Assembly (NCBI GenBank): GCA_030710605.1
Contig: CP092879.1
Span: forward strand, 23,943,605-24,007,604
DNA: 64,000 bases
Source of the DNA: Cordylochernes scorpioides
Taxonomy: Eukaryota; Arthropoda; Arachnida; Pseudoscorpiones; Chernetidae
Direction of reading: 5' to 3'
The notes beneath the pieces were generated by a model that saw nothing but the letters and a program-made list of their open reading frames with translations, did no database searches and was not told the DNA's origin. Below, piece by piece: positions 7,620-61,683 of the stretch; positions within the stretch are counted from its first letter, which is position 1, and each line of letters starts with the position of its first letter. The position numbers and the translations under genes are program-made.

Positions 7620-7990
7620 ACATAGTTGGACGAGTTGGGTTGATTCAACCCACTTGTGTAACTTTAGGAAATAAGCGCTAAATTATGATTTAAATCAATA
7701 TTTAAAAAATATTTAAATTCGAAATTATTATAGACGCGTATGAATCTTTTAAAAATAAAACAATATCTACTGCCCTTACTGCAATGGAAATAACGGGAAC
7801 CAGGCCCTCCCATTAATTTTTCCATTGCAGTAAGGGCAGTAGAAATTGTTTCATTTTGAAAAGAATCATACGCGTCTATAATAGTTTCGTATTTTGATAA
7901 CAGATGGCGCGCTAGTGCATCTTAATATAAATATAGATATGTTGAATTTCTCCATATTCAGAAAATATATTTATTAAAAATAAAAAGACA
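7620..7990. repeat. Palindromic family A repeat, decayed
   Basis: Two inverted arms carry the family's CTACTGCCCTTACTGCAATG block (7768-7790 and its complement at 7832-7852), with GCGCGCTAGTGCATC near 7908. The ribozyme-like part is deleted in this copy. It separates gene units 1 and 2. Confidence 0.7.
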
Positions 7991-16679: not shown

Positions 16680-16860
16680 TATATATATATATAGATGTTT
16701 ACATTCTATATATATATTATAGGTCTAGACAATTATATTACGATGCACTAGCGCGCCATCTGTTATCAAATTACAAAACTATTTTAGAGGCGTAATATTC
16801 TTTTTTTAAATAAAACAATTTCTACTGTCCTTACTGCAATGGAAAAATTAAAGGGAGGGC

Positions 16861-16919
16861 CTGGCTCATCAGTGGTGAACCCTCCCAGCGGTTTCGCCAG
16901 TTTAATCTACCATACCGCT
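16861..16919 (-). ncRNA. Family A hammerhead-like motif (strand order 3-2-1), minus copy
   Basis: Same arrangement as 17440-17498: AGCGGT (16919-16914), cleavage position A, TGGT (16912-16909), CTGGC-GAAA-CCGCT, ACCA (16876-16873), CTGATGA (16872-16866), GCCAG (16865-16861). Confidence 0.55.
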
Positions 16920-17407
16920 GTTATATTGCATTTTTGGAACTTCCTTTTATAGGTGACTGTTGTAAGACTCTTGGAATGGGTATTTTAGAAGAACTATGGA
17001 CATAAGCTTTTAGGACAGCAGAATTAAATATAATTATAAATATATAATATGCTTCGAGCAATCGCTCTTCCGCAAATATCAAATTGTGTCTTTTATTTGA
17101 AAAATTATATTACGATGCACTAGCGCGCCATCTGTTATCAAATTGCAAAACTATTTTAGAGGCGTAATATTCTTTTTTTTTTTAAAGAATATTACGCCTC
17201 TAAAATAGTTTTGTAATTTGATAACAGATGGCGCGCTAGTGCATCGTAATATAATTGTTCAAATAAAAGACACAATTTGATATTTGCGGAAGAGCGATTG
17301 CTCGAAGCATATTATATATTTATAATTATATTTAATTCTGCTGTCTTAAAAGCTTATGTCCATAGTTCTTCTAAAATACCCATTCCAAGAGTCTTACAAC
17401 AGTCACC

Positions 17408-17415: not shown

Positions 17416-17439
17416 GAAGTTCCAAAAATGCAATATAAC

Positions 17440-17498
17440 AGCGGTATGGTAGATTAAACTGGCGAAACCGCTGGGAGAGTTCACCACTGATGAGCCAG
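17440..17498 (+). ncRNA. Family A hammerhead-like motif (strand order 3-2-1), plus copy
   Basis: Stem III AGCGGT (17440-17445) with ACCGCT (17467-17472); cleavage position A17446; stem I TGGT (17447-17450) with ACCA (17483-17486); stem II CTGGC (17459-17463) with GCCAG (17494-17498); core GAAA (17464-17467) and CTGATGA (17487-17493). All hammerhead core residues are present but the three core strands occur in reverse cyclic order. Confidence 0.55.
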
Positions 17499-17832
17499 GC
17501 CCTCCCTTTAATTTTTCCATTGCAGTAAGGACAGTAGAAATTGTTTTATTTAAAAAAAGAATATTACGCCTCTAAAATAGTTTTGTAATTTGATAACTAG
17601 ACAATTATATAGGATATTTAGCCTTATGTTTTAAATGGTTATAGTAATCTTTGTTTCTATTTCCCTAGGTTAGTTTAGTATATTAGTAAGCTTGTACTGA
17701 ATTCTTCTCCTTTAGTGTCTATCTCATTGTTTACCTTGGTTGACCAAATGTGAACAAACAACGTTATTGGGTAATTTTCACATAACTTTTACAAACATGA
17801 TATTAAGAAATAACATTATGAATTTAATTATA

Positions 17833-19869: not shown

Positions 19870-20260
19870 GATGCATTAGAGCGCCATCTGTTTTGAAAAT
19901 ACGAAACTATTATAGACGCGTATGATTCTTTTAAAAATTAAACAATTTCTACTACCCTAAATGCAATGGAAAAATATTGGGAGGGCCTGACTCATCAATG
20001 GTGAACCTTCTCAGCGGTTTCGCCAAATATAGATATCAAAATACGAAACTATTATAGACGCGTATGATTCTTTTCAAAATTAAACAATTTACACTGTCCT
20101 TACTGCAATAGAAAAATTAATGGGAACCAGGCCCTCCCATTAATTTTTCCATTGCAGTAAGGGCAGTAGAAATTGTTTTATATTGAAAAGAATCATACGC
20201 GTCTATAATAGTTTTGTATTTTGATAACAAATGGCGCGCTAGTGCATCTTAATATAAATA
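19870..20260. repeat. Family A palindromic repeat, partial
   Basis: Contains GCGCCATCTG, the CTACTG..TGCAATGG block in both orientations, and a minus-strand hammerhead-like remnant at 19988-20024 in which strand 3 is missing but CTGGC/GCCAG has become TTGGC/GTCAG, still able to pair. Confidence 0.65.
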
Positions 20261-26779: not shown

Positions 26780-27130
26780 GTAGAAAAAAATAAACTAAAG
26801 CAGTTTTCGTATATTTTTCTCATTTTTTCATATATTTATATGAAAAATAATTTCTACTACCCTTACTGCAATGGAAAAAAATTAAAGGGAGGGCCTGGCT
26901 CATCAGTGGTGAACACTTTCAGCGGTTTCGCGAGTTTAATCTACTACTTTAATGGTATATTAAACTGGCGAAACCGCTGGGAGGGTTCACCACTGATGAG
27001 CCAGTCCCTCCCTTTAATTTTTTTCATTGCAGTAAGGGCAGTAGAAATTGTTTAATTTTCAAAAGAATAATACGCGTCTATAATAGTTTCGAATATTCAT
27101 AACAGATGGCGCGCTATGCATCATATTATA
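26780..27130. mobile_element. Palindromic family A element
   Basis: Inverted arms with the CTACTGCCCTTACTGCAATGG block at both ends and hammerhead-like sequence on each strand (minus 26896-26940; plus 26963-27005). The centre, which would hold strand 3, is shortened, so neither motif is complete. Ends with GCGCGCTATGCATC. Confidence 0.65.
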
Positions 27131-29961: not shown

Positions 29962-31222
29962 TATTTCGGCGGAGACTTGAAATTATTGGATGGGGTTTGT
30001 TCGGATTTGCAGCCCGTTTTCTTCGCTTTCAGTCAACACCCTAAAGGGGTTAGTGATCTTCATTACCTCCATCCCAGCCGCAGAAAACGCATTGCTTGCG
30101 CGCCACACGGCCGCACGGGCCGAGAGAGTGTGTGTACACGAGAAAATTCATATCAGATAGGAAATAGTGGTACAGTAATAGACACTACAGTAGAATCAAT
30201 TAGCAACGAAAGCATGAAAATGCACATGAATTGTGTTGTACAGTTCTATGTTAATTTGTGGGATAGAGCTCCATGCCTGTTGTACCTATTCAGTCAAATT
30301 AACATCAGTACATATACTGGTTGAGGTGGAGCTGTCGCCCAATATTATCCAATATATGCTGAATGGGAGAAAGATCTAGTGATCTTGAAGGCCAAGGGAA
30401 CTTGTCGACATTCTGTAGAATACGTTGGGGAAACAGCATTTGAATGTTTTTAATTAGATTTGAGTCAAGGATGCTCTAAGGTTGTTACCAGCACCACGTG
30501 GAGGATCGCTGCCACGAAAGAAAAAAAATGAAGAACTGTTCTTCTGCCATTTTGTTTCCAATTTAAAATAATAAAAAAGGTCACAGATTTTCTAAAGAAA
30601 TGATGATGGTAGTCTCATAATACATACAGCTCATTGATATCGAGCGAGGTGGTGTGATAGAGCTATGAGATGGTGGATTTATTTTCACAATATTAAAGTA
30701 TTTTTTTTAAGAGAAAGACTGTTCATGTAGCTGACAAAGGTTGTCACAGGAAGCTCTGGCTCAGGAAAACTTCAAAGGGGTTCTAATACAACTTATTTAA
30801 TTTATGGAAATTTCATGGAAAGTGTTTTGTTTGAGCAGCTAAAACCAATGGCGTTGGTTTTTTTTTTTTTTTCGAATTCAAACTCTTGGAAATGTTCTAA
30901 AAATCCTATAATAGCATAAAAGTACCCGCATTACTTAAACATAATTATATGAATAAATTTTAATAATTTCAGATGTAGACAAAACAAAACTGATACTTTT
31001 TAGAAGTGCAATCAAACTGATATCTACTTGTGACCGCTCACTCCAACTTATCCTGATATAGCTAAAGAATTTTGTGATAAATACCTTCTTTTTATATAAA
31101 ATAAAATAATAAAAATATAGTAAATTTAAGTTTTTAACAATTTAAAAATAAAAATTGGAAAGAATAATCACTTAGCAACGTGAATTAAAGACCATTGTTT
31201 CACAATTAGCTCAGCTATCGAG
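29962..31222. other. Non-coding, nothing recognised
   Basis: Mostly AT-rich with short GC-rich patches next to the ORF1-like remnant (30000-30130). No repeats with clear ends and no supported frame. Confidence 0.4.
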
Positions 31223-31603
31223 ATGGGAAACTGCATAAAGCGATCCAAGCGAGTGCCATACCAAAGGCCACCAAACGTCGACGAAATATTGCGCAAATAT
31301 TTCGAGGAAGAACTACGATTCCTGGGATCCAGACAGGACCCAGAGCCCCGGCGACCTACACGGGTGACATTTGGAGCCCGACTCCTGGTCCGAACCTTCG
31401 ACGCGGACGAGGCGGCCAACGTGAACTGCGGCCATTACACCATGGCGGAAGACTCCCTCTTTACCCCTGGGCAGGAATTCGATGTCCCGGCGTGTCCACC
31501 ACCGTCCCCAAGGAGGAGATTCTGGAGCCGACGCCAGACCTCTACTGGAGTTCCAGTTAGACTTGAGATGGCCGCCCTCAAGCTGGGCAAGGTCTACGTG
31601 TAA
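31223..31603 (+). CDS. Hypothetical protein beginning MGNC, GC-rich open frame
   Basis: A 126-residue frame from ATG in acceptable context (GAGATGG) to TAA. It is strikingly GC-rich compared with flanking DNA, which argues for real coding sequence or a recent insertion. Seen features: MGNCIKR at the start, the form of an N-myristoylation/palmitoylation signal; an acidic-basic helix (DEILRKYFEEELRFL); RVTF followed by LLVRTF, which resembles an RVxF phosphatase-docking motif; a C-terminal half rich in P, R and S. No family is recognised. It might be a single-exon gene, one exon of a longer gene, or retroelement debris. It is followed at once by a minisatellite. Confidence 0.45.
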   Translation: MGNCIKRSKRVPYQRPPNVDEILRKYFEEELRFLGSRQDPEPRRPTRVTFGARLLVRTFDADEAANVNCGHYTMAEDSLFTPGQEFDVPACPPPSPRRRFWSRRQTSTGVPVRLEMAALKLGKVYV

Positions 31604-31679
31604 TTGGTAGACCTGTACCTCCGCCCTCCCCTTCACTACCATTGCCCTCGTCAACTACAACCATCCTACTATTGGCCCC

Positions 31680-32020
31680 TCCCTTTGTCTCCAACATCCT
31701 CGGGCTCTCCTTACCACCTCCTTGACCTTCTCATGCCACCTCCTTGGCCTTTCCTTGCCACCTCCTTGGCCTCCCCATGCCACCTCCTTGGCCTCCCCAT
31801 GCCACCTCCTTGGCTCCTCCCTTTGTCTCCAACTTTCTCGACCTCCCCATGCCACCTCCTTGGCCTCCCTATGCCACCTCCTTGGCCTCCCCATGCCACC
31901 TCCTTGTCCTCTCCATGCCACCTCCTTGGCCTTCCCTTGCCACCTCCTTGTCCTCCCCATGCCACCTCCTTGGCTTCCCCATGCCACCTCCTTGGCCTCC
32001 CCATGCCACCAACATCTCGG
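31680..32020. repeat. 22-bp minisatellite
   Basis: Tandem CTTGGCCTCCCCATGCCACC plus TC, about 14 imperfect units, strongly pyrimidine-biased on the plus strand. Proline-rich frames across it are products of the repeat. Confidence 0.9.
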
Positions 32021-32159
32021 CCTCTCCTTTCAATCAATATGTTATGAATTGAATAAAATTGAATATTGGGGAAAATTTCATTTGAAATGTTTCCTAAAAA
32101 CATATTTCACAGGGTCCTTTAACAACCATTGATTCTATACTAAAACAAAAATGTATATT

Positions 32160-32310
32160 ATTAGATCAGTCTAATTCAATAGTAGAGAGGTATGGGAGAT
32201 TAAACTGACAAAATTAATATATGGTTCACCACTGATGAGCCAGGCCTCTCCACAATTTTTTTTTCATTTCAGAAAAGGCAGTAGATGGCTGTTTTATTCA
32301 TAAAAATAGC
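32160..32310 (+). repeat. Family A fragment
   Basis: Has GATTAAACTGACAAAATTAA, GGTTCACCACTGATGAGCCA and the GGCAGTAGA end block, but the GAAAC part and strand 3 are lost. Confidence 0.6.
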
Positions 32311-32534
32311 AATTGCGCTAATACGTAGTTTAAAATATCATGTAGACATCTTGTTTGATTTCCATAATCGTGATGCACTAATTTTCCGCTAATAGGGAAG
32401 TCAAGTTTATGCTGCCTAAGGAATCAGCAGAACTCAAGACTTCGATTTTAGGAGTTTATAATTTCTTTCACACAAACACACAGTATAAATAGTTAAATAA
32501 CTCTAATTGTACTTCAAAAACCAATTAATATGCA

Positions 32535-32715
32535 CCAAAAGAGACAACTCTTCCTTTAAATGAGTATCATAATGATGACACTGTGCATCACCCTAGTAAA
32601 AAACCTTACTAGTGATGATAAAGAATGAGAAACCAGTTTTGGCGATTTCAGACCAAAAGCCAACCTGTATACCATGGTTTCGGACTTTGGCCCTTATCAG
32701 TACAGGGACGCTTCG
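32535..32715. repeat. Dispersed repeat shared with 5380-5770
   Basis: Same order of blocks (AAAGAGACA..CTTCC.TT, TTACTAGTGATGATAAAGAA, CCAGTTTTGG, CAACCTGTATACCATGG) as at 5380-5700. Confidence 0.55.
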
Positions 32716-32741
32716 CTCTCTCTCTCTATATATATATTTAA

Positions 32742-33421
32742 TTAGCGGTTGTACTCGGCTTCGCCCGGGGTTTTACCCAAGTAAAGGTTTGTCTAACGAA
32801 CATTTGCTGAAACAATTCTCTATAAACTTTAAAAAAAAAAAAAGATATATTTTGATAATTTGAAACTCGTAAATTTGAATCTCTCGATAAAGTAAACATT
32901 TTTTCCCGGTCCCTGTGCGCCGTGTCATCCTGAATTTTGTCTTTCCTAATTTTCTACATTACAAAATCATCGTTTTATCTAGTGAACATTTTTTCCCGGT
33001 CCCTTGAAAAATACTCGATGAGTTGAATAAAATCAATATTAATTGGTTCCCTCGGTAATTGGAAGTTAAAGGAATAGTATCTTCGCCTTGGAATTGTATC
33101 ATTATTCTTGTCTCAAATAAATTGCCGTGTCATCCTGAGATAATCTTACTTTTGATAAATAATCTTTAAGATAATAAACTTAGTGATAATAAAACTTATA
33201 GATAAAAAACTTGTTATCATCGTCGCAATGGTGGCGCTGCTTGCGAGTTAAATCTACAAATCTGCAAATAACTCTAAGGATATTCAAGATATTCAATAAA
33301 TTATTTTTCAAAAACCTTCCCGGGGATATACCTAATAATATCCCAAAATTACACGGCGATTGGATTATGGTTTTTGAATCTATAGAGTACAGACAGACAT
33401 TCAATTTTATATACATATAGA
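32742..33421 (-). mobile_element. Non-autonomous Helitron, minus orientation
   Basis: On the minus strand it starts TCTATATGTATATAAAATTG after A and ends with a GC-rich hairpin region and CTAA followed by T. 3' hairpin: CCCCGGGCGAAGCCGAG. No coding capacity. Confidence 0.7.
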
Positions 33422-33699
33422 TTACTAGACGAATGACTCGGCTTCGCCCTGGAATTCCCCCGAGTGCAATTTCCTTCATACTGAAATAGTTGGCAGATTT
33501 TCCACCCAACCTCCGAGGTACCCGCCCCAGCGTGTTAACTCTTATATATAGTGGTGCATCCTCTGTAGGTCTATTACACTATTTGGCTAAAAAGGATAGG
33601 GATTGAAATTGCTTGAGAAGAGTGACCGTGATTGACCAAGCCTAGCCAGCAGCCTGTAATCTAATGTTTTCAGACCCCAATCAAACATTCCTAGATGTT

Positions 33700-33995
33700 T
33701 TTTTGAAAAATAATAAAAAAAAACTAATATTAATATAAATAATAATAATCTGCAACTGTCCTTGAATATTCTATTCTAGAGATTTTACCTTTCAAATATA
33801 TACAAATATATACGTATATAGAAAGAATTATGAAAATAATATACCACTCAAACCACACCAACCAACTCAAATATTAATATAAATAATAATATCTGCAACT
33901 GTCCTTGAATATTCTAATTCTAGAGATTTTACCTTTCAAATATATACAAATATATACGTATATAGAAAGAATTATGAAAATAATATACCACTCAA
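33700..33995. repeat. Tandem duplication of about 150 bp
   Basis: 'CTGCAACTGTCCTTGAATATTCTA..TACCACTCAAAC' occurs twice in direct order (from about 33752 and 33894) between the Helitron 3' end and the helicase frame. Confidence 0.8.
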
Positions 33996-34873
33996 ACAAA
34001 CAAAAAAAAGAATAAAATAGCATTAAAAAAAATGCATGACAACACAGAAGAATACACAAAATTTGAAGTCTTATTTTCTGGAGCCAAAACATAAAGATTT
34101 CTTCCTGAGCCAACTCTAGAGCAGGCAACATACAATTGCCCATGCGATAAACAGGGTTGCTCCAAGTCAATGCCAGCAATTTTGAGGGACTGACCTTGAG
34201 CCTTGTTAATCGACATGGCAAAAGAAACTCGAATGGGGAACTGCAATCTTTTAAAATGCAAAGGAGAATGTTTATCATCATGAATCAGAGGAATCCGGGG
34301 AATAAAAACCTCTTCATTTTGAAAACAACCAGTAAAAATGGTTGCCTCTACCACATGAGGCCACAATCTTTTAACACAGAGACGGGTACCATTGCAAAGG
34401 CGGGGTGCATCAATATTTCTCAATAAAATAATGGGAACACCAACTCTAAGTTCTAAGTGATGTGGTGGCATCCCAGAAGGTTCTAAAGAATTTAAAAACT
34501 CTGTAGTATATTCCACGCAATCCTCAGCATCAATGGTGGAATCCACAGAAGTATATAAAATGCTTTGCCCTGGTATTTCTTTCAAAAGCTGAGCATTTAT
34601 GGCATCAACTACACAATTCCTTGGAGCCAAAATTGCCCGCTCACAAAGCCAAGGATAGTAATTCGCCCTTCCCCGGTTAAACATCTCCCCAATGTTAGGA
34701 AAAACACTATTCTTTAGGCCAGAGAGGGAGTCACACACACACACAACAGTGTTAACCAATTCATTTGAAAAATTAACATTACCATCCGTATCATTAAGTT
34801 GGCCACTTCCAAGTTGAAGCAAAAATTGTGAAAATAACAGTGAGTTAGGATCTCCTGAATTGACAGCCCGCAT
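33992..34873 (-). pseudogene. Helitron PIF1-type helicase, C-terminal portion
   Basis: About 290 residues from the C-terminal half of a Helitron RepHel helicase. Recognisable blocks: AILAPRN..VDAIN, PPHHLELRVGVPIILLRNID with LCNGTRL, FAMSINKAQGQS (motif V region) and LYVACSRVG (motif VI), the usual order in PIF1-like helicases. Walker A/B and the HUH nuclease are absent, so the fragment cannot act alone. The C-terminal tail is hydrophobic and probably non-native. Beyond about 34873 the frame starts near the break with the next repeat. Confidence 0.85.
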
Positions 34874-34894
34874 ATTTGTTGAAAGACCAGTTAG

Positions 34895-35200
34895 ACTGGC
34901 CTTGTCTTTATAGTTTGCTGAAGAGCATTGCTCGATGCAAATATTTGAATGTAATGCTAATGTCCTATAAGCTCATGTCCATAGTTTACTTGAAAACCTT
35001 TTCTAAGATTCCATCCTTTAGTGTAGCATATAAAAGCAGAATGATCCAATACAGTATTAGAGCTCTGAGAAGCGGTCTGGTGGATTGAATTGGCGAAACC
35101 GCTGAGAGGGTTCACCACTGATGAGTCAAGCCCTCCCAATATATTTTTTCATCGCAGTAAGGACAGTAGAAGTTTGTATTATATATAAAAGAAACATTCG
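34895..35200 (+). mobile_element. Family A element, single (non-palindromic) copy
   Basis: Aligns to 17300-17560 from 'TAAGCTCATGTCCATAGTT' through the CATTGCAGTAAGGACAGTAGA-like block (35152-35172). It has a TATAAAAG box at 35029-35036 and the best-preserved hammerhead-like motif of the family. Confidence 0.7.
35071..35129 (+). ncRNA. Family A hammerhead-like motif, best copy (strand order 3-2-1)
   Basis: Stem III AGCGGT (35071-35076) with ACCGCT (35098-35103); cleavage triplet GTC with C35077; stem I TGGTGGA (35078-35084) with TTCACCA (35111-35117), 7 bp including one G-T; stem II TTGGC (35090-35094) with GTCAA (35125-35129); GAAA 35095-35098; CTGATGA 35118-35124. Base 10.1 is G and 11.1 is C, as in hammerheads. 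The order of core strands (III3'-I3', II3'-III5', I5'-II5') makes three crossing helices, unlike types I, II and III. Confidence 0.6.
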
Positions 35201-35608
35201 CGCTTTTAAATCCTTTTATTTTATATGTATTTTATAGACTAGTTCAATCCTACTAACAATAAAAATGTACAAAATTTCCGTCTACTAGGTGGTGGCTATA
35301 TACTAGAGAATTTGTATATTTCCTTGCAAATAATGGAAAATAGGAACAGACGTTTCGCTGATGTAATGAACAGCAGAAGTTCCATTACAAAGGGGTCAGG
35401 AATGGATTATTTTCTATATTCCTTCCAAATTTTGTAATATTTTAAATATAATTCTAGGCCACGTACATGTTTAAAATTTCATTATACTCAATCAATGTTA
35501 GATGGAGCAAGTGTACAAAATATCAGGGTTCTAGATGGCCGTGATGTGTTCTGGAATAGATTATAGAATTTGTTTATTTATCAAAAGGAGAAAATAGGCG
35601 CAACCATT
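35201..35608. other. Non-coding, nothing recognised
   Basis: AT-rich; no repeat ends or frames supported. Confidence 0.4.
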
Positions 35609-35644
35609 TGTGGTGTTGTTGTTTCTTATCCCCTTGTGTAAAGA

Positions 35645-35908
35645 TTATACGAATTCCATGAGTTCATGCTCCTCGAGCTGTTTTATGATGAGCAGCGGCC
35701 TTTCCCAAAGGTCCTGTTTAGTTCATCTAATGCAAGCCAAAATGTGTTCTGGAGCTGCAGGTACCAAACTACATTTTGGGCAAGTGGGATAAATTTTGTT
35801 ATTATTTTCTATCTTCAATGGCTTGAGATGGCCTGTTCTAAATCTTGTTAGTGTTGTTTGATGCTGTCTATTTCTGATGTTCAGAGCTCCTCCTGGGTTC
35901 ACTCCACT
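35645..35908 (-). pseudogene. Jockey-like ORF2, C-terminal end
   Basis: Encodes the last ~85 residues: SGVNPGGALNIRNRQHQTTL, a CCHC-type knuckle (CPKCSLVPAAPEHILAC) and a terminal ..EFV. Continues from the part at 37859-39390. Confidence 0.85.
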
Positions 35909-35921
35909 GTACCAACTGTGC

Positions 35922-36576
35922 GTGGGGAAAGAAATATTCCCACCCTCACCATTCACCCTTGAGGATAGGGGAGTGGAGAGGCGTCTCTGCGTGTTTGCCT
36001 TGCGCCGGAGTACCACTGGTTGATCCTCAGTGAAGCTGTAAGCTGGTGATCCGCCCTTGGTTAGCTGGTCGCGGGGCGCACGAGCCTTGAAACTCTTCGG
36101 TCTTCGCTTTGTGTGTGCGCCATTGGGAGCGTCCTTGTCGTGCGTGAAAATTGCACCAGGGCTAGGCCTGGTGATGAAAAACCAAGGGGTACACACAGTA
36201 GTAACACCCCCCCGCCTTCGCGAGGTTCCCTGCGTAAACCTCAGAGGTCCTTGATTCGACGACAGATTCAGGGAGTACTGGGAACTAAGGGTTCGAGGGC
36301 CAAAGGGGGGGGAGTCCTATTGGAGCGTAGGACGGGTTTAACTAAGTCCGAACGAGAGGGCTCGGTCAGTAACCTTGCCATGAACTCTCGAAGACGCCTG
36401 TGGGTTTGATTGGTCGACCCCTGGAGCCAGACCATATTGGCGGGCGCGAGGGGCCAAACAATGGCCGCTCGGTGCATGGAGAATGCATCATTCCCTTTTG
36501 GCTGTGTGACTTGGATGTCAGCAATGGTTTACGGTTTATGGACCTTTGAGGTCTGCGAAACTATTGCTTCTAGTCT
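35922..36576 (+). mobile_element. Non-LTR element X, 3' fragment (first insertion)
   Basis: Bounded on both sides by GTACCAACTGTGC (35909-35921 and 36577-36589). Its last ~490 bp match 37413-37845 (TTCGAGGGCCAAAGGGGG, TCCTATTGGAGCGTAGGACG, GGCGGGCGCGAGGGGCCAAA). GC-rich and non-coding, i.e. a 3' UTR piece. Confidence 0.75.
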
Positions 36577-36589
36577 GTACCAACTGTGC

Positions 36590-37845
36590 ATCGGTAGTGG
36601 GCCGACAAACACTGAAACTAAGGCACGATGAGCTGGTGTATTCGGCAGAACTGGTCGCGATCAGAGAGGCTCTGATCTGGTTCTCGGATTGCATGTCCGC
36701 CCTCATCTCCATTTGCTTGGAGAAGGGACAGATGGCGCATGAAGTAGCGGATCTGCTAAGTGAAATGGATAGGCCCCCCAAATTATACTGGGTAAAGGGG
36801 CACTCTCTAATTGAGGGCAATGAATTGGCTGAAGAACTGGTAAAAGAGGGATGCTGGTCTGGAAGGGATGTGGTGACCCCAATTCCAAAGAAAGAGGTTT
36901 TCATGCGTATCCGGGCGCATATTAATGAATTATGGAAGGATAGATGGGTGGAAGCAACAAACGGTCGGGAATCCTTTAAATGGATTAAAGTTCCAAAAAG
37001 GAACAGTCGAATCCTCTCACACAAATTGAACAGGATGATCACGGGACACGGCCCGTTTCCTATTAGTTTGGCGCGGTTTGGAATTAAAGCAGACGACAAA
37101 TGCGTATGTGGGAGCCTTGGGGCAAACGCCAAACATTTTATAGTGGACTGCCCAAGGGTCCCAAGAGGGGAGGAGGAGAGTTGAAGATTTAAAGGAGTAA
37201 TCGAACTGGAGCTCCTGAAATCCCACTGGAAGTTATTGGAAAGAGCTCACGATGTCGCTAGTGAGCTCTTCCTCAACTGTTAGATGCCGCAGTTGACTAC
37301 AGTGGATAGCTTGCCGATGATCTGGCGGAGAGTGCTAGTAAGGCTGTAAGGAAAGGAGAGAGTGTGTTAGCCGATGACCTAGTGGAGTACTGGTATGGCT
37401 GAAAGGATGGGGTTTAGAAACTCTTGGGTCTTCGCTCTGTGTGTGCGCTATTGGGAGCGTCCTTGCCATGCGCGCCATGGAAAACCAAGGGGTACACACA
37501 GTAGTGCCACCCTCCCGCCTCCGCGTGGGTTCCCCGCGTCAACCTAGGAACCTCAGAGGTCCTGATTCGACGGCAGATTCAGGAGTACTGTGACCAAAGG
37601 GTACAAGGGCCAAAGGGGGGGGGGGAGTCCTATTGGAGCGTAGGACGGATTAGACCAAGTCTGAACGGGAGGGCTAGGACAGCAACCTTGCCATGAACTC
37701 TCGGAGACGCCTGTGGGTTGACTGGTCGCGCCCACGTAGCCAGACCATAATGGCGGGCGCGAGGGGCCAAACAATGGCTGCTCGGTGCATGGAATGCAGG
37801 CTTATGGACCTTCGAGGTCTGGGTAGCCATTACTGCTCCAGGGAT
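36590..37845 (+). mobile_element. Non-LTR element X, RNase H end plus 3' UTR (second insertion)
   Basis: Bounded by GTACCAACTGTGC at 36577-36589 and 37846-37858. Starts inside RNase H coding and ends with the same 3' UTR as the first fragment, so both are 5'-truncated copies of one element family, in the same orientation. Confidence 0.75.
36591..37184 (+). pseudogene. Element X RNase H and C-terminal zinc motif
   Basis: About 198 residues. RNase H blocks: SAELVAIREALIWFSD, then YWVKGHSLIEGNELAEEL. The C-terminal C-x1-C..H..C pattern (CVCGSLGANAKHFIVDC) is the knuckle common at the end of I/R1/Jockey-group ORF2 proteins. EN and RT are missing by 5' truncation. The frame runs back across the duplicated target site into the first fragment by chance. 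Confidence 0.8.
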
Positions 37846-37858
37846 GTACCAACTGTGC

Positions 37859-39390
37859 TTAGGTGGGATCTTCCAGTTCTTGTTTATTTTGGCTACTGTT
37901 TCTATTTCTTTAAAAGTAAGTTTATTTTTCTGTAGCAAGGGTTCTTTTGTGCCTTTTTTTGCTAGCACATCAGCAGCTTCATTGTCTTCAATGCCAACGT
38001 GTGAGGGTATCCATTGAAGGTGAATTTTTGAGGTTTTTGGAGATAACCAATTATGTTCCTGCTTACTTTGTCTCTGAGTTCCCCTGTGTGACTCAAGTGT
38101 TGTATGGCACTTCTACTATCAGTAAGAATCCAGATATCTTGATAATTAGTATTTCTAAAGGATTTTAAGGCTTCATAAATGGCTATAAGTTCTGATCTGA
38201 AGACTGAGCAAAAATCTGGGTTTCTTCTGTTTATTTTGTCAATGCCATTTGTGGTTTTGATGAGACAGCCACTGCCAGTGTGTCCTAGCTCGTCTCTGCT
38301 ACCATCAGTATAGATAGTTATTGCATTTTTAGGAATGTTATTAATTATTTCTAATGATAATTGTTTTAAGTATTCTGGATTTTGATATTGTTTGTTGGTG
38401 GGTTCATTTAAAGTGGCATTAAAAATAACATTTTGTAGTGGTTTGCATGGAGAAATTTTTTCTGCTAAATAATTTTTTTCCACTTTATATTTTAAAAATC
38501 CATTTCTTTTGGCCAGGTGGAGAGGGTCTTCTTTTTTGAGTCTTATATTGGATTCCCAATTAAGTATGTATTTGGAAGTTCTGTGTTTGTTTCCATAACT
38601 TTTGATTTTGTTTATATATTTTGACAGATTGTAGCTTCTTCTATCCTTTAAGGGCATAATGTCTGCCTCGTAAAGTACAATATCATTAGGGCAGGTATTT
38701 CGAAGACCTGTAATAATTCTAGCTGCACTTAGTTGTATCCTTTCCAGTGATTTTAGATTTGTTTCAGATGCTGTACCATAGATTTGATATCCATATTCCA
38801 GGATAGGTCTAATTAGAGATGTGTAAGTTAATTTTAGTGTGGTTGCATCGGCTCCCCACTCTCTTCCTGAAATATATTTCAGGATTTTTAGTCGGTCTCT
38901 TCCTTTTCTAATAACTTCTTCAATATGTTTACTGGAGTCAATTTCTGGATCCAGGGTGTAGCCGAGATATTTAGGATGTTTATTATATTGTAATTGTTGT
39001 TCTTTCAGAATAATTTTTGGTCTTATTTTGTATAGTTTTTTATCGGTAGTAAAAAGACAGGTTTCAGATTTTTGGGGGTTAAATTCTAATTTATGTTTAT
39101 TAGCAAATTTTTCTAGGTGGAAAAGAGTCTTGTGCAAATCTCTTTCAGCTTTTTTCCAGTTAGTATTGCTGCTCCATAGAATAATGTCATCAGCGAAAAG
39201 TCCAATATTGGTTTTATGTGAATTTTTTTCTTCTATGCCTGCAATAAATAGGGTGAAGAGAGTTGGGCTAAGGACTGATCCTTGTGGTAATCCTTGTTAC
39301 AATTTGAAGGTTTTAGATAGAGTGCCATTATATTTGACCCTGATGTATCTATTTTTGAGGAAATCATTTATCCAAGTGATAGTGGTGTAA
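37859..39390 (-). pseudogene. Jockey-like ORF2, RT to RNase H part
   Basis: From the RT (LPQGSVLSPTLFTLF, FADDIILW) through the thumb to RNase H (ITIYTDGSRDELGHTGSG, FRSELIAIYEALKS, LTDSRSAIQHL). An in-frame TAA at about 39296 replaces a Tyr codon of the intact copy, and the frame shifts near 38035. Elsewhere it is nearly identical to the intact copy at 45-49 kb, so it is a fairly young pseudogene. Confidence 0.88.
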
Positions 39391-39800
39391 TGTGATGGAT
39401 TTGTGGTGTAATGAGCGGCTGGCCCTTCTCTCTAAAGGAAACTTTGGATATTAGATGCTGTCCTAAATTCTACTATGTTCAAAGTAGCAACAGCATATGA
39501 GAGGAGTTTAAACAACTACAAATATTTATCGCAATGAGTTTCTTTTTATTTTAAAATGCTAGCTTTCACAAGTGATAATTGCTCTTCAACAAGCTTAATT
39601 AAAAACGTCGACTATTTCTTACAAGAAATGTTTACAAATATATACATGCAGCATGAATATTCACAGATGAAATTTAAACTAGAATTGTGATAGCTATTTA
39701 CATTTTTGCATATAAAAAGAAACTCATGATAAATATTTAAGTTTTTCATAATATCATCTTGAATATAAGAGGAGTATAATAACTGTAGTGTTGTAGCTAG
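39391..39800. other. Intergenic, downstream of the SMARCAD1-like gene
   Basis: AT-rich; no features recognised. Confidence 0.4.
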
Positions 39801-39823
39801 AGGAGGTGCTGAGAGAGATGAAC

Positions 39824-39829
39824 TTTATT
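39824..39829 (-). terminator. SMARCAD1: Poly(A) signal AATAAA of the SMARCAD1-like gene
   Basis: AATAAA on the minus strand, 43 nt beyond the stop codon at 39872. Cleavage is expected some 15-25 nt further on. Confidence 0.75.
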
Positions 39830-39871
39830 TAAAATAATAATTTACAGGGAATTGTAGTGTGTGTGGTGTGG

Positions 39872-39939
39872 TCATGTGAGCTGTAGGGCTGTCTTCAGGA
39901 GCCGTTTGACGTTGGCTGCAGAGTCTTCATCCTCCTCTC
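39872..39939 (-). CDS. SMARCAD1: SMARCAD1-like, last exon
   Basis: Acceptor CCAG before 39939, then coding for EEDEDSAANVKRLLKTALQLT and TGA. The acidic stretch followed by LLKT matches the C-terminal end of the family, and the phase fits the exon at 44548-44651. It lies 4.6 kb from the previous exon. Confidence 0.85.
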
Positions 39940-40049
39940 CTGGACACCATCATTGTTACATCTCTCTGGGTACTTAGCTGTGGAACACAGTTTAGTGCAC
40001 CATCTATATATAAGTAATTAAACTATTTAGTGTCATTTTTTTTTCAAAG

Positions 40050-40320
40050 ACACCACCTACTGTCCTTACTGCAATAGGAACAGGACCTAGCTCATCTCAT
40101 TGGCTAAGCCTTCTAGCAATTTTGCCAGTTTAATCAACCATACACAGAAAAGAATAGTCCAATACAATAGTATATACATGCATACTTGCAATATTGAAGT
40201 GTTATGGTTGGTTAAACCAGAGAAACTGCTGGAAGGGCTTACATCACTGTTGAGCTAAGCCCTCCTAATATTTTTCAATGCATTAAGGACAGTAGGAAGA
40301 GTGTTTTATTTGAAAAAAAA
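40050..40320. repeat. Family A palindromic repeat in intron
   Basis: Arms with CTACTGTCCTTACTGCAAT and the complement near 40265-40290. The plus-strand copy (40206-40258) keeps GAGAAACTGCTGG and CACTGTTGAGC in the family order but with core changes, so it is inactive. Confidence 0.6.
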
Positions 40321-51999: not shown

Positions 52000-52275
52000 C
52001 CCGGGGGCTGAGGAGAACATGAGCTTGATCTGGTCCACCCTGTTGGAGAAGAGCTGGGCATGATGAAGATGAGGAGAGAGAGCAGCTCCACCAGGTTGTT
52101 CTGCAGTGGGGTGCCCGTCAGCAGCAGCTTGTGGGTGCTGTTGATGCGGATCAGGCTCTGGTACCTCTGAGACTTCATGTTCTTCAGCATGTGGCCCTCG
52201 TCAAACACCACGTAGTAGAAGTGGAGCTTCTTGAAGAAGTGCCGGTCCTCTGGGCTGCTGCTCACTATGTTGTAT
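52000..52275 (-). CDS. SMARCAD1: SMARCAD1-like exon, helicase motifs II-III, one base short
   Basis: 276 bp; acceptor TGCAG, donor GTAACT. Codes for [29 protein letters not shown] (Walker B DEGH) and [19 protein letters not shown]. After IMP (near 52054) the frame slips: the expected [18 protein letters not shown] is present one frame over. The phases of both neighbours require 277 bp, so one base is missing inside the exon. Confidence 0.93.
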
Positions 52276-52434
52276 CTGCATCACAGAATTGGCACCTCAG
52301 AGATGATTCCAATATTTAGCAATTAGCATCCAAAAATCAAACAACAAAATTAAATGCTACTTTTTATTAGTCTAATCTTTACAACAGTCCTCTCTGCACC
52401 AAAAGGGTCACAGCTTGAAATCCATATGTATAAT

Positions 52435-52670
52435 TGCCTTTTCTTGATTATTCAAGAAAGGGTATTTGGCTGATATTTTGGAATAATTAAATATCAACAA
52501 TTAGTTAATATTTATTCCAACAGATGGTGCAAGCCATCAGCAACTTTCAGTCAATCAGAAAATTAATTTAGCGAAACCGCTGTGAGGGTTCACCACTGAT
52601 GAGCCAAGCCTCTGATTTCAATAACTTATCATTGCAGTAAGGTCTGTAGAGATAATATTTGATGCTAGTA
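52435..52670 (+). repeat. Family B and family A fragments
   Basis: 52440-52540 is a family B end (TTTTCTTGATTATTCAAGAA, ATCAACAATTAGTTAATATT). 52565-52605 has family A GCGAAACCGCTGTGAGGGTT and CACCACTGATGAGCCAAG, without strand 3. Confidence 0.65.
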
Positions 52671-53340
52671 TAAAAAAGTAAACACATTGTCAGAAAATTT
52701 TAATTGTGATACAAATTTTATTTTATTATATATTGGAAGAACACTTTAAAGTCTAAATATAAATTTTATATAATATAAATGACCACACACAAACAGACTT
52801 AATGGCATTGTGTGCCAACCCAACAGATGAAATACCTACTGGCAATTATCCAGGTATGACACATTTTTGGCCAATCTGACCTGCTCAGCCTAAAGAGCTT
52901 TCCTCACATAAAAAAAAAAGTTATCTTTTGTAAGAAAAAGTTTTTAATGAGAAACTAAAAGCATATTAACAATCAAGTTGTTGCCCCCAGAGTGATGGGA
53001 TAAACAATACATTAAACATTTTCTACCAAATCTAACTGGTGTCCACACAATTATTTTCAAAATAACACAGAAGTGAAAAAAAAAGAACATGTCAATAAAT
53101 TTCCGTAGAAAAAAATAGAAATGGTCAAGACAGTTAGGAGTATATTGAAAGTAATATATTTTAAAGATGGGAATGGTTGATTGAACAAGTGGGGTTGAAG
53201 GGATGTAGGCTAATTAAATCAAGGAAGTGACAGTGGAGTGGGCTCTTTGGAGGTCCTTCAAACTTCTCAATGGAGCTTTCTGAGATGGTAATGTAGAGTT
53301 GGTTTAGGTATGGCCCTTTCAGTTTGGTATTATTTGACAC
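52671..53340. other. Intron sequence, nothing recognised
   Basis: AT-rich, no supported features. Confidence 0.4.
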
Positions 53341-53360
53341 CACATCTAGTGAACTATTGT

Positions 53361-53412
53361 ACTTTTGTCTGAAGATGGTAACAACGCTGTTACCGAAACA
53401 TCACACACTATT
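53361..53412 (+). ncRNA. Penelope-type hammerhead, family C, decayed site
   Basis: CTGAAGA (53369-53375), one T, stem II GGTAAC-AACGCT-GTTACC (53377-53394), GAAAC (53395-53399), then ATC where intact copies have GTC. The minimal stem III (AC/GT) matches hammerheads known from Penelope-like elements. Stem I is short (TTTGT with ACACA). Confidence 0.6.
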
Positions 53413-54780
53413 CACATTAAAATGTTTATATTTTAAAAATGAACAGAGAGAGGTATATAACTTAGTTCTAACTTCCATATATGAGTAAAATATAATGCTA
53501 CCTTGTCCAAAAATTATTTGTTGTTTTGAATGTTCAAATATTTAATAATTGATGAATACACACAGCTTGGCTTCAAGTTAAAATTGCAGATATGGTTCAT
53601 TTCATTGAACTGGGGGGAAGGGGGGTAGACATTGCACTAAAACAAGTTCACTTGGGGAGGAATTGTGGAGAGAGTCTTAATTAGTTCGTTAAAAGAAGTT
53701 TTTCAACAAAAGTAAGTTAATATCCCCATCACCATTATTCAACTTGCAATGCTGTTAAGGGACAATATCTTGGAGCTATATAATAGCTTATAAGCTACAA
53801 TATAGTGGAACCTCAGAGGAATCAGTGACTTCCAGTGTGAAATTTAAAAAGGAAAATAACAGAACTAACAATGAGAGAGGAATCACACACTGAAGAAGAG
53901 GAATTTCATGTTCATACAAGTAATACAATTCTTGGGCATCTTTGCCCTTCTACAGGAGAACATATATAAAAACACCGCCTTATGCCAAACTATTACAAAT
54001 CTATATATACATATGGTAAACTTCTTTATAGTGCTATATCATTATATATTTAGGGAAGTGAAGAAGGCAATTGGAGAACCCAGACAAGAACAAAACTGAA
54101 CATCAAGCAGGAACATTTTGACTAAGTAATACTTCAGTAATAAAGTCAGTTTGAATTGACCCGATAGTAACTACAGTACAATTTGGGAATAAGAATAAAC
54201 TCACAGTAGATGTAGGCCAGAGAGAGGTGTGGTTTGCTCTAGTGAGTAGATGCCAAAAAGTGGGAATTATTAGGAACTCTGGTGTCATCTATGTAGGTAC
54301 TTCTCCATATAGCTAGCTAGCTACAGGGGTTTATAAAAACTCCTTTATTCCATGCAGCTTGTGCAGTGTTATAGCGGTTACACACAGAATATTTTATATT
54401 AGGGGAAAAAATGGTTAGCACTAAGGTAACTTTACTGTACCTTTAGAAAATATGATAGCATGGTAAATTGGCTGTAAGAGGTGAGTTATTAAAAACAAGA
54501 TGGCATAAAACTGTTGAGAAATTTTTATGAATGATGAGAATTTTTAAAAAGAAATAAACCTACATAACAAAATTTGTAAAAAAAAAAACAGAGAGAGATG
54601 TAGTAACATTCATTTCTGAAGATTGAATTGAGTTTTTCTGAGTGCTTATTTTAAATGGAAGACCAATTTTTTTCAATTAGTAAATGGAAGATAAAAAGGT
54701 ACAATTTGGATTATAGGTAATAAGACCAAAGCCATAAAAAGAGCAGACATTTTGGTAATAGTATTGTTACCTTCATACAT
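53413..54780. other. Intron sequence, nothing recognised
   Basis: AT-rich; the stretch 54700-54780 belongs to the next family C element (GGTAATAAGACCAAAGCCAT). Confidence 0.4.
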
Positions 54781-54790
54781 CTCATTTATA

Positions 54791-54840
54791 CTTTTTCTGA
54801 TAATGGTAACAATGTTGTTACCGAAACGTCACGCACAATG
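54791..54840 (+). ncRNA. Penelope-type hammerhead, family C, core mutated
   Basis: CTGATAA (one core change), T, GGTAAC-AATGTT-GTTACC, GAAACGTC (54823-54830). The cleavage triplet is intact. Confidence 0.55.
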
Positions 54841-54879
54841 TTTTTGGATTTGGCCTTATGCCTGAAGATAAAAAATGAA

Positions 54880-54960
54880 TGGCTTGTGTGGTGAACCTTC
54901 TGAGCCAATTTAATCCATCAGAAAGGTTCACTACTGATGAGCCAAGTCCTCCCACACAAC
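54880..54960 (+). repeat. Family A fragment
   Basis: GGTGAACCTTCTGAGCCAAT followed by the oppositely oriented GGTTCACTACTGATGAGCCA block. Confidence 0.55.
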
Positions 54961-55089
54961 TCCAGTTCACTAATTGTACTTCTCTTATTTTAAATAAACA
55001 AATACTGTTGATAATTCCATCCTCAGCAGTAGTATTATTAATTTCTAGTGGTGTTAGAAGACCACAGGAAAGGGTTATTTATTACTTAC

Positions 55090-56075
55090 GTGGTAAGCAT
55101 AATGTCCAGTTCTTCCACATTATTGCTATTGAAAGAGCATCTTATATCCTTCCGCTGCTCTTGGGAGCCATAGTAACAAAGGAGTTTAGCTGTTGGCAAC
55201 CACGTTTCAAGTTCCCGTATCCAATTGTCCAGGGTGGAGGAGGGCACCACTATGAGGTGAGGGCCTTTGTTCAGAAGCCGGAGGTGGGCGAGGAAAGCAA
55301 TGGCCTGGACAGTCTTCCCCAGGCCCATCTCATCTGCCAGGATGCCGTTGATCTTCTGTTCATGGAGGAGGGCCAGCCAGTTGAGCCCCACCATCTGGTA
55401 TGGCTTGAGGTGTAGAGAGGGGTTGAGGGAGGAGGGCTGGGTCACAATGGTCTGGTGGTTGGAGAGGTTGGCGACCTTCTGCCCGATGCGCTGGCTGATC
55501 TCGTGGCAGTTGTTCATCAGCTGCCCCACCACTTGCCTGGTCTGCAGGAGCTCCCGGATGTTCTTCAGGAGGTCTGTTTTTAGGCCTTTCACTGAGTCAA
55601 ACTTGTTGGAAAGCTCTCTCCAGCTGGAATAGGGTCTGTTGTCCACTATTAGCTCTGCCTTCTTCCGGCTGCAGCCCTGGATGGCCTGCAGTTCAGCCTG
55701 AGTGGAAGTCTGAACAAACTTGAGGATGTGGTCTTTCCCAGTGTCGCTGATATGCACATCACTGTCATCACTGTCTAAGTCGTCATTCTCTGCGAGGTAG
55801 TCTACCTCATCATCACTGCCCACATACACCTTCTTCCGCTTGGCTGCAGAGTTGTTATTGTGGTGCTGCTGCTGGGCCAAGGGCCTCTGTGGCTGGACTA
55901 CATCTTCCTCATCAGAGGAGGATAGAGCCCTCTTCCTCTTGCTGTGAGCAAATTTCTCCAGGTGGGCTGAGAGTCCATTGAGCTTCTTAGCCTTGGTGGT
56001 GCCTGACATCTCTGTTAGCATGTCGTTGGCCTTCTCAAGATCCCAGTTGCTCTTGGTAAGGACACTTTGGAGAAC
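55090..56075 (-). CDS. SMARCAD1: SMARCAD1-like exon, CUE to helicase motif I
   Basis: 986 bp; acceptor TTCAG, donor GTAAGT. It starts with the second half of a CUE domain (VLQSVLTKSNWDLEKANDML), then a basic and acidic linker (SSSDEEDVV, KRKKVYVGSDDEVD), a helix-hairpin-like stretch (ELQAIQGCSRKKAELIVDNR), and the ATPase lobe: LKPYQMVGLNWL, DEMGLGKTVQAIAFLAHL (Walker A), LIVVPSSTLDNWIRELE and CYYGSQEQRK. Confidence 0.96.
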
Positions 56076-56759
56076 CTGAATGACAAAAAATATCAAAGTG
56101 AAAAAATGAACAGCAAAGTGTTGCAAGCATTCATGGAAGGTTTTAGTGTAGTCATCAGTAGCCATGTAAAAACACATTCTTTAAACAAGGAGCTCACTTA
56201 AATGGAAAATATATTGTAAAGGGAAAGAGAAAGGTTCAGAAGAGTGTGAATTGCTGAGACTTTATTTATATATATAAATTTAGACCACCTCTGTGTTATC
56301 AACTTTAAAAAATGACATGACTAATCCAAATAGATATATTGTCAATGGTATTGAAATAAAATGCTGTGTTGTGTGTGAAATGTTTTTCTGGGAGGAATGG
56401 AGGAGCACAAAATAAAAATTACACTCCTCATTTTTCTGATACACTTGTGCTACTACTTAACTCTGGTAATATATAAAATCTATCACTAGAGGAACACGCA
56501 CACTGAGTGGACCAATTGTAATCATCACCAGAATGAAGTACTCAGTACTCCCCCATGAAAAATAACCAATCCAGCCCTGACTACAATGTGTTTTAGAGCC
56601 AATCAGGAAAAGCTCTACTGTGTACTTAAGTCTGATGAAGATATCAGAACACCAAGTTTAGTTTACATATTTGGAATCAGTCCTTTGATGATGTGCCCCT
56701 TCTGGTCTTTGAGAACTTGGTTATAAAAACCTAAATTTTTGGTCCAAAGTGATTTTGTT

Positions 56760-56990
56760 ATATTGAGTTTCAAATGATAAATCACAATTTGGATTATAGA
56801 TAATAATACAAGAAAATAAGACCTATTCCAAATAATTTATTAGTACTATTTAAGAACTTGCGCTGTGATAGTTTTTCTCATTTATTCTTTTGTCTGATGA
56901 TGGTGAGAATGCTGTGGCCGAAACGTCACACACTAATAAATTATTTGGATTAGGTCTTATTACCTTGTATGAGTTTCAAATGTATAATGT
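56760..56990 (+). mobile_element. Family C element with hammerhead
   Basis: Bounded by 'ATCACAATTTGGATTATAGA' and 'TGGATTAGGTCTTATTACCTTG', which also bound copies near 53.4, 58.85, 60.5 and 63.8 kb in either orientation. Confidence 0.65.
56888..56937 (+). ncRNA. Penelope-type hammerhead, family C, intact core
   Basis: CTGATGA (56894-56900), T, a weakened stem II (GG..CC), GAAACGTC (56920-56927), then ACACAC. Core and cleavage triplet are as expected; stem II has drifted. Confidence 0.6.
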
Positions 56991-57158
56991 TTGAAAAAGA
57001 ATATAGGAGCTCTTCAAAAGGAATATTCAAGCCTAGAACAATGTCTGTGGGAGTGTTGGCTCTAGTGATAAAAATGGAGTGAATCATTGTGGAGGACACA
57101 AGGAAGTTTTTTGACCAATATCACCACCTTAGATCATGACATGAGAAGACTGACTCAC

Positions 57159-57306
57159 CAGGGTGTCTTCGCTGGGAAAGAGAAGAGCCATATTCCTGAG
57201 TATATGCTCTTTTTCTGACATTGAGAGGCACTTGGAACGGTCCTCTTGTGTTGGACTGACTATACGTTGCCTGGCAGCCCCAACTGGCTGGATAGGGGAG
57301 GACTCA
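57159..57306 (-). CDS. SMARCAD1: SMARCAD1-like exon with first half of CUE domain
   Basis: Donor GTGAGT after 57159. Codes for SEKEHILRNMALLFPSEDTL, which continues in phase into VLQSVLTK of the next exon to complete a CUE fold. The acceptor is uncertain: GTGCAG before 57306 is one choice, CTGCAG about 15 bp upstream is another. Confidence 0.75.
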
Positions 57307-57361
57307 CTGCACACACCACAGCTGCAGCTTCCTGGCAGTAATGTGGTCCTCACTGCCTTAC

Positions 57362-57411
57362 CTCATTGTAGAAGTCTGCGAGATTGGTGTCTCAGTTTCC
57401 GCAACTTCAAC
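57362..57411 (-). CDS. SMARCAD1: Possible upstream SMARCAD1-like mini-exon
   Basis: Open stretch VEVAETETPISQTSTM between a CTCTAG and a GTAAGG donor. It would fit the disordered N-terminal region, but there is no conserved motif and it is only ~50 bp. Confidence 0.3.
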
Positions 57412-57457
57412 TAGAGCTACAACACACATACAGGCTTGTAGGTCTGTGGAGCTAGGC

Positions 57458-57711
57458 CAACATTCTAAGCAATATCTATAGAGCAAAACTACTTTTGTCC
57501 ATTGGTCGAGCTATTCTCTAAGATTTTAAAATTTTAATATTCTATAAGAGGGAAAAAATACTTTAAAGAGGATAGGTATATATACAACATTCTAAGCAAT
57601 ATCTATAGAGCAAAACTACTTTTGTCCATTGGTCGAGCTATTCTCTAAGATTTTAAAATTTTTAATATTCTATAGGAGGGAAAAAATACTTTAAAGAGGA
57701 GAGGTATATAT
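57458..57711. repeat. Tandem duplication, 127-bp unit twice
   Basis: CATTCTAAGCAATATCTATA through AAAGAGGATAGGTATATATA occurs twice in direct succession with few differences. Confidence 0.9.
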
Positions 57712-60430: not shown

Positions 60431-60439
60431 TCTTATATT

Positions 60440-60625
60440 CACAAGGTAATAAGACCAAATCCAAATAAATAAATAAATAATGTGTGACAATTCAGTAACA
60501 GCGTTGTTACCATCTTCAGTATTTCTAAAGATGGTAACAACGCTGTTGCCGAAACCTTACACACTATCTATTTAGAATTGGTCTTATTACCTTGTTTATA
60601 ATCTATAATCCAAGTTGTGCTTTAT
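60440..60625. mobile_element. Palindromic family C element
   Basis: Inverted arms: ends GGTAATAAGACCAAATCCAA / complement, centre with GGTAACAACGCTGTTA on both strands. Minus strand keeps CTGAAGA-T-GGTAAC but has GAATTGTC; plus strand keeps GCCGAAAC but has CTAAAGA. Each half is defective in a different part. Confidence 0.65.
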
Positions 60626-60746
60626 CATTAGTTCCTATATTATGTATATACACATTTGTCATTTGCATAGGGGCCCTTTTTATAGGAAGAAGGGAGAGCT
60701 TTTTTTCTGGCTTTCCAGACTATTGCCTCCCATCTTTATATAGAGA

Positions 60747-61454: not shown

Positions 61455-61683
61455 TTATAAAAATGACTATTACTAGTAGAAATTCCTAAAAATATATTTC
61501 TTAATTGGGTTTTACTCTTTCTTTTTGAAGCCCTGATAAGTTTGGGACTATCACTGATAGAGAATGCAACTTCATTGATATTTAGTGTTTTACATATTAA
61601 TTTATATATAATTTGAAAAGAGAAATGTATGCAAATATATATTTAACAGAGAAGCATACTTACTCTTCATTATTTTCTATATG

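Follow-up and report, generated by a model that had tools for sequence, protein, structure and literature searches.

Introduction

The closest described relative of the motif treated here is the type-SGC hammerhead, a non-circularly permuted form comprising the HRIMA-1 motif and its variants, which was shown to cleave in cis and of which the tested examples with intact sites cleaved in vitro (Eckert et al. 2023, PMC10085705). Its I-II linker is typically 3 nt long, and a gap of 0–44 nt separates stem III from a helix through which stems I and II interact (PMC10085705). Almost all motifs in that work were exclusive to metatranscriptomes; in the genomes of known organisms there was only a type-GCS candidate (PMC10085705).

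Two kinds of mobile elements are also relevant. Metazoan non-LTR retrozymes, in those parts of Cervera and de la Pena (2020, PMC7229834) on which we draw, have units of about 170–400 nt with type I hammerheads (order C-G-S), occur in tandems and at high copy number, carry target-site duplications of > 4 bp, coexist with Penelope-like elements and were shown as circular RNAs. Penelope-like elements, according to the sections of Frangieh et al. (2024, PMC11167929) used here, encode a GIY-YIG endonuclease domain along with reverse transcriptase; this applies also to the element PAc, which has tandem copies and hammerhead motifs, and in Anolis both strands of the target are extended by an enzyme of this kind.

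The locus considered here, positions 35071–35129, lies in a window of 64,000 nucleotides (the whole stretch of DNA that was analysed) from the pseudoscorpion Cordylochernes scorpioides. With the published type SGC (PMC10085705) it shares the S-G-C order, the conserved CUGANGA, GAAA, the cleavage site (UH) and stems I–III in core register, and the published stem I/II interaction helix corresponds to a fourth helix here, which joins the outer flanks of stems I and II; it differs in being part of a nuclear, repetitive animal element and in its I-II linker of 5 nt. Unit size, tandems, copy number, target-site duplications and the presence of Penelope-like elements recall the metazoan retrozymes as far as the cited parts go (PMC7229834), whereas the S-G-C form, knowledge from DNA instead of circular RNA, and head-to-head pairs which outnumber tandems in a 4.35-Mb listing set it apart from them. 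PAc, as described in the sections cited (PMC11167929), is similar in its tandem copies and hammerhead motifs, but it encodes reverse transcriptase and GIY-YIG endonuclease, in contrast to units of 367–371 bp with the S-G-C form. The first-pass annotation of the window had regarded the strand order as foreign to natural hammerheads; it had in fact been published as type SGC (PMC10085705). No earlier report of a genomic type-SGC element was among the open-access titles listed. Thus, the topology is known already, while the genomic, mobile and, judging from sequence, apparently active animal version appears to be new as far as was searched.

Results and Discussion

Layout of the motif

All core parts of a hammerhead are present at 35071–35129, in the order cleavage site, GAAA, CUGAUGA (S-G-C):

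35071–35077, plus strand: block S, 5' strand of stem III (AGCGGT, 35071–35076) and cleavage-site C (35077), from the letters and the published type-SGC register
35078–35084, plus strand: block S, stem I strand TGGTGGA, pairs with 35111–35117
35085–35089, plus strand: 5-nt linker TTGAA, from distal stem I to distal stem II
35090–35103, plus strand: block G, stem II strand TTGGC (35090–35094), GAAA (35095–35098) and 3' strand of stem III, ACCGCT (35098–35103)
35104–35110, plus strand: 5' strand of the fourth helix (the stem I/II interaction helix), GAGAGGG, 6/7 pairs with 35131–35137; two-sided change in subfamily C
35111–35129, plus strand: block C, stem I strand TTCACCA (35111–35117), CTGATGA (35118–35124) and stem II strand GTCAA (35125–35129)
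35131–35137, plus strand: 3' strand of the fourth helix, CCCTCCC, following a single G
34895–35199, plus strand: copy of the repeat unit which holds the motif, subfamily B, 88.9% identity to a natural B unit in locus L070

On re-reading, the letters, the coordinates and the stems of 6, 7 and 5 bp given in the first-pass annotation were all as it had described them: stem III is paired at 6/6 positions, stem I at 7/7 and stem II at 5/5, the latter two with one G-U each. The fourth helix has one mismatch in this copy (6/7 positions paired), while the main subfamily forms pair at all 7/7. In the register of the published type-SGC motif, the predicted cut falls after 35077. The copy at 34895–35199 contains TATAAAAG; its first T precedes by 49 nt the base which directly follows the predicted cut. 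Positions 35104–35110 had been taken for a tight 7-nt linker which the fold would have to span; since these bases form one strand of the interaction helix, which had been missed, such a tight span is not supported. The gap between stem III and the fourth helix is 0 nt in the 35071–35137 copy.

Occurrence in the window

A descriptor which allowed all six block orders detected three motifs in the window, all of them S-G-C (at 16862 on the minus strand and at 17441 and 35072 on the plus strand); the other five orders were absent. Sixty dinucleotide shuffles of the window, searched in the same way, yielded no S-G-C and one C-S-G motif, and 20 arbitrary 10-kb stretches (200 kb) contained six S-G-C motifs and none of other orders. 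The hammerhead-like arrangement at 35071–35129 is therefore real and not due to chance, as the first annotation had argued from the coincidence of core and stems. A profile made from the window copies gave 18 matches in the window at E ≤ 1, some of them partial and several in inverted head-to-head pairs. Copies and profile matches include:

17429–17558, plus strand: subfamily A copy which passes the S-G-C descriptor; right half of a head-to-head pair
16801–16930, minus strand: subfamily A copy which passes the S-G-C descriptor; left half, paired with 17429–17558
26935–27065, plus strand: head-to-head copy; BLAST homology begins 1 nt from the predicted cut
26834–26964, minus strand: head-to-head partner of 26935–27065; BLAST homology begins 2 nt from the predicted cut
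32175–32305, plus strand: decayed copy (profile match)
40037–40317, both strands: decayed head-to-head pair, 40037–40143 minus and 40188–40317 plus (profile matches)
52540–52668, plus strand: decayed copy, subfamily C-like (profile match)
19928–20189, inverted arrangement: partial copies (profile matches)
7746–7862, inverted arrangement: partial copies, mostly tail (profile matches)

Rfam at gathering scores gave no matches in the whole window, and a lax search of window positions 30000–40000 and 52000–61500 and of five family loci placed no hammerhead model on the element. Some other features of the window were observed. It contains a reverse-transcriptase reading frame whose best matches are proteins of Cordylochernes scorpioides. 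At 32648–32716, on the minus strand, there is a degenerate type I hammerhead of the canonical form which resembles Rfam HH9 (E 0.38; its 20.3 bits do not reach the gathering score of 52). Stretches similar to CTGATGATGGTGAGAATGCTGTGGCCGAAACGTC are repeated at 53369, 54797 and 56894 (plus) and at 60519 (minus); we take them to recall minimal Penelope-type hammerheads, but they had no Rfam hammerhead match, and the one at 60519 has lost GAAAC. Adjoining the motif copy, at 33992–34873 (minus strand), is a helicase fragment with a Pif1 2B domain, which is presumably Helitron-like.

Abundance in the genome

The assembly of Cordylochernes scorpioides (2.62 Gb) contains 131,607 places which match the 17-mer CACCACTGATGAGTCAA with up to 2 mismatches, compared with 763 for the reversed control, and 52,127 exact places for the GAAA-CUGAUGA half (pattern GCGAAACNNCTN{6,16}TTCACCACTGATGAG), compared with none for its reversed control. 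Among 43 of the latter places, which were the first part of one contig's listing and no random draw (L049–L088), 22 passed an intact-core rule, and 18 of these had also a fourth helix of 7/7 pairs, with G-U allowed. The other 21 failed, among them five places belonging to another repeat and L088, which was counted as not intact for the sole reason that a 2-nt insertion shifts the register. The different repeat (L049, L060, L062, L067, L073) has blocks G and C only and an unrelated, conserved upstream sequence. By extrapolation from 22/43, the number of core-intact copies of the exact GAAA-CUGAUGA pattern can be estimated as about 27,000; scaling up the 6 motifs per 200 kb of the arbitrary sample would yield about 79,000 copies, with a wide error. 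The reverse cyclic order of strands, which had been claimed for one locus, is conserved over a large family. A scan of IMG/VR for the family gave no match.

Architecture of the element

The element is a non-coding repeat of about 370 bp, and by its anatomy it is a retroelement. At L046, 2.4 head-to-tail copies of a 367-bp unit with 99% identity and intact cores are flanked by a 14-bp target-site duplication; L069 contains about two 371-bp units (99.4% identity, intact cores) with an inverted 136-nt piece and a 16-bp duplication. These two are the inserts in which target-site duplications were checked. L018 and L070 have one unit with 89 and 77 repeated bases, respectively, at spacings of 377 and 371. 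Two other candidates for tandems were dropped, namely L009, which consists of two separate inserts 378 bp apart, and a 376-bp pair in L070, where a B copy is joined to an A copy. The 5' truncation of copies is variable, as judged by BLAST. In the 4.35-Mb listing 13 close pairs (≤ 600 bp) were present, ten of them head-to-head, one converging and two on the same strand (L069, and the B and A copies of L070), while about 1.4 pairs in all would be expected by chance.

The insert 3' ends at L046:3677 and L018:2506 are at different points of the unit, which would be expected if circular or multimeric RNA were copied from internal starts. A rod-like circular fold of the unit was considered and is not supported, since the stability of the circle did not exceed that of shuffled sequence (z −0.2). 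Units end near ACAGATGGCGC (e.g., L069 at about 570–595 and the window at about 16.73 kb), and AGATGGCGC stretches, related to this tail, recur elsewhere in the window; the tail stretch may serve as a common signal for the 3' end. Units of A, B and C carry a conserved stretch similar to AAGCTTATGTCCATAGTT some 100 nt upstream of block S and a TATA-like box 39 or 49 nt from the cut, together a possible internal promoter. A tRNA search in L046 found none, and there is thus no sign of a tRNA-derived SINE at this locus.

The ribozyme unit (367–371 bp) is too short for, and does not encode, a reverse transcriptase with a GIY-YIG endonuclease. The genome does contain candidates for such a partner: of 17,015 candidates 150 were scored, and 146 of these matched the GIY-YIG endonuclease domain, with open frames of up to 828 codons. 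Where two of the 146 are neighbours at a distance of up to 8 kb, they are head-to-head (11/11 pairs). An enzyme which extends both target strands, as described for Anolis, would explain head-to-head pairs, and the ribozyme element is probably moved by Penelope-like enzymes.

Subfamilies and covariation of the stems

Among the 43 copies of alignment A1, which leans to one subfamily because loci L001–L028 had been chosen by exact CACCACTGATGAGTCAA, 84.8% of the cells pair, compared with 33–57% when the partners are slid by 1–3 columns. Three of five measures of covariation exceeded nearly all shuffles, i.e., two-sided changed cells (18 vs 10.1; 1/500 shuffles as high), a covariation score (0.130 vs 0.115; 2/500) and paired cells (84.8 vs 84.1%; 7/500). 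The other two showed no excess: pairs with two-sided change numbered 7 vs 6.6 in shuffles, and further pair types 26 vs 26.0. One stem I column pair, 16-52, is unpaired in 32/42 rows.

The signal is located in changes of stem I, stem II and the fourth helix at the level of subfamilies. As its outer pair, stem II has C-G in A and U-A in B and C; A and B share the fourth helix GGGAGGG/CCCTCCC, for which C has GAGAGGG/CCCTCTC; stem I has UGG/CCA in A and B and UAG/CUA in C (G-C to A-U). At the junction loci L089–L094 and L096, C-type arms had CACTA in 15/15 cases and, where both strands were present, GAGAGGG together with CCCTCTC in 13/14. A diverged copy, L095, does not fit the C pattern, and older C-like copies (L015 and L024, both picked through their CACCA string, and the window copy at 52.5 kb) have CACCA without the changed stem I pair of C. 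The compensatory changes are three events, not many independent ones, and none is in stem III. The first-pass annotation had named a lack of covariation in stems I and III as grounds for refutation; stem I shows covariation in the one subfamily change from G-C to A-U, while stem III shows no two-sided change among the A1 copies. The base at the cleavage site is C, and A in subfamily A.

Insertion ends at the predicted cut site

BLAST 5' ends were only suggestive by themselves, with 13/99 within −5 to +10 of the predicted cut (A 7/32, C 4/10, B 2/58) and 25/58 of the B ends between −113 and −18; therefore, head-to-head junctions were read instead. The junction pattern GGTTTCGCN{18,48}GCGAAACC had 850 matches, compared with 2 for the control. 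In the first set (50 of the 850 matches listed, 47 distinct) the longer arm ended 0–2 nt from the predicted cut in 23/47 junctions (p about 2e-10 for a uniform spread of the 44 junctions in −7 to +16). The second set, with one arm anchored on subfamily B, comprised 74 distinct junctions among 100 rows; among the matches listed, 24/74 ended at 0–2 and 14 of these exactly at 0 (p about 2e-6 and 1e-6, respectively, on 70 junctions in −7 to +16). Where the longer arm was B (57 in the second set), 14 ended at 0, two at 1 and seven at 2. The two sets are not independent, since eight places are common to both.

Ends at the cut site were seen in A, B and C. In the first set, 24/94 arms stopped 6–7 nt inside, where ATTAAT offers microhomology, and 13/94 extended 7–29 nt beyond the cut. 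B arms were found to pile up also 8 nt (7/57) and 11–13 nt (11/57) upstream of the cut site. At L094 a strand breaks off at the cut and continues on a different copy, in the manner of a template jump. The junction ends suggest a genomic footprint of self-cleavage in vivo, i.e., the inserted RNAs may have had 5' ends made by the ribozyme.

Possible explanations

A transcription start or another nuclease could perhaps also produce sharp ends at this site, the likeness to a hammerhead not being their cause. The spacing from the TATA-like box to the site, which is 39 nt in both A and C, would agree with this, as would the junctions which end elsewhere, amounting to half or more (24/47 in the first set and 50/74 in the second). 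Yet B ends at the same position of the core despite a spacing of 49 nt, and because the spacing differs (39, 49, 39), one fixed transcription start fails to explain the shared end position. In addition, three A arms make up another class of ends 13 nt upstream of the cut; these are separated by 26 nt from the box (counted from its first T), which is nearer to the usual distance between TATA and start. The shared end position is the site dictated by the hammerhead core in three subfamilies with differing local sequence. We regard such an origin of the ends as improbable. A foldback DNA element (MITE-like), with inverted hairpins acting at the DNA level, appears still far less probable; many copies are inverted pairs which look like terminal inverted repeats, but head-to-tail tandems, target-site duplications (14 and 16 bp) and 5' truncation to a variable extent fit reverse transcription, and there would be no need for intact CUGAUGA and GAAA in S-G-C register. 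This interpretation was dropped because of the tandems and the long target-site duplications.

The ribozyme might also be a relic, once active in the family, with the 35071–35129 copy and most others no longer cleaving or lacking transcription. The 21 of 43 places which fail the intact-core rule (including the five of another repeat and the register shift), the mismatch in the fourth helix of the 35071–35137 copy, and the many decayed or partial profile matches point in this direction. Recent activity is indicated, on the other hand, by the tandems of L046 and L069, with 99% identity, intact cores and clean target-site duplications, and by near-identical B copies (L050, L051, L056, L063, L068); we therefore think that a relic is unlikely.

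Considered together, the motif is in our opinion likely to be a type-SGC hammerhead ribozyme on a non-autonomous retroelement of about 370 nt of Cordylochernes scorpioides, the cut RNA being reinserted by a Penelope-like enzyme; cleavage chemistry, circular RNA and the Penelope-like partner are here inferred from genomic letters. Most simply, the S-G-C motif would fold in cis: stem III and the fourth helix would form two hairpins, and pairing of their loops through stems I and II would restore the core of the hammerhead, with the cut falling between C (A in subfamily A) and the U which opens stem I. Transcripts which start upstream or cross tandem units could then be cut at the predicted site, and the cut RNA, linear or possibly circular, could be used by a Penelope-like reverse transcriptase-endonuclease. 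Extension of both broken DNA ends by the enzyme would give rise to head-to-head and tandem copies with target-site duplications.

Experimental Section

Motif searches: The descriptor covered all six block orders, with stems of ≥ 4 bp, ≤ 1 G-U and a span of up to 110. The intact-core rule demanded stem III 6/6, stem I 4/4 beside the core and stem II 5/5, with G-U allowed.

Alignment: Loci L001–L028 were picked by the exact 17-mer mentioned above, and L029–L048 were placed at arbitrary round coordinates. From 58 matches scoring ≥ 60, 45 copies were selected, and 43 of them formed A1; L012 and L045 were omitted because of long insertions.

Conclusions

Type-SGC hammerheads have so far been orphan environmental sequences of unknown host and function. 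The animal host, the mobile element, its subfamilies and the test of activity which the genome itself provides would open their origin, folding and biology to direct testing. A very abundant candidate ribozyme can escape searches which consider only the three circular orders, those with the Rfam models tried among them. The element would also be a system in which junctions of RNA cleavage and reverse transcription could be counted by the hundred. It may represent a distinct class of arachnid retrozymes, in which the whole cycle (processing of tandems, circles of about 370 nt and Penelope-like reinsertion) would operate on a pseudoknotted hammerhead of topologically permuted form, present in tens of thousands of intact copies. 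Such a class would give the type-SGC ribozyme its first known home in a genome, and cleavage in vivo would be recorded by its insertions; we consider the chances that it exists to be evenly balanced.
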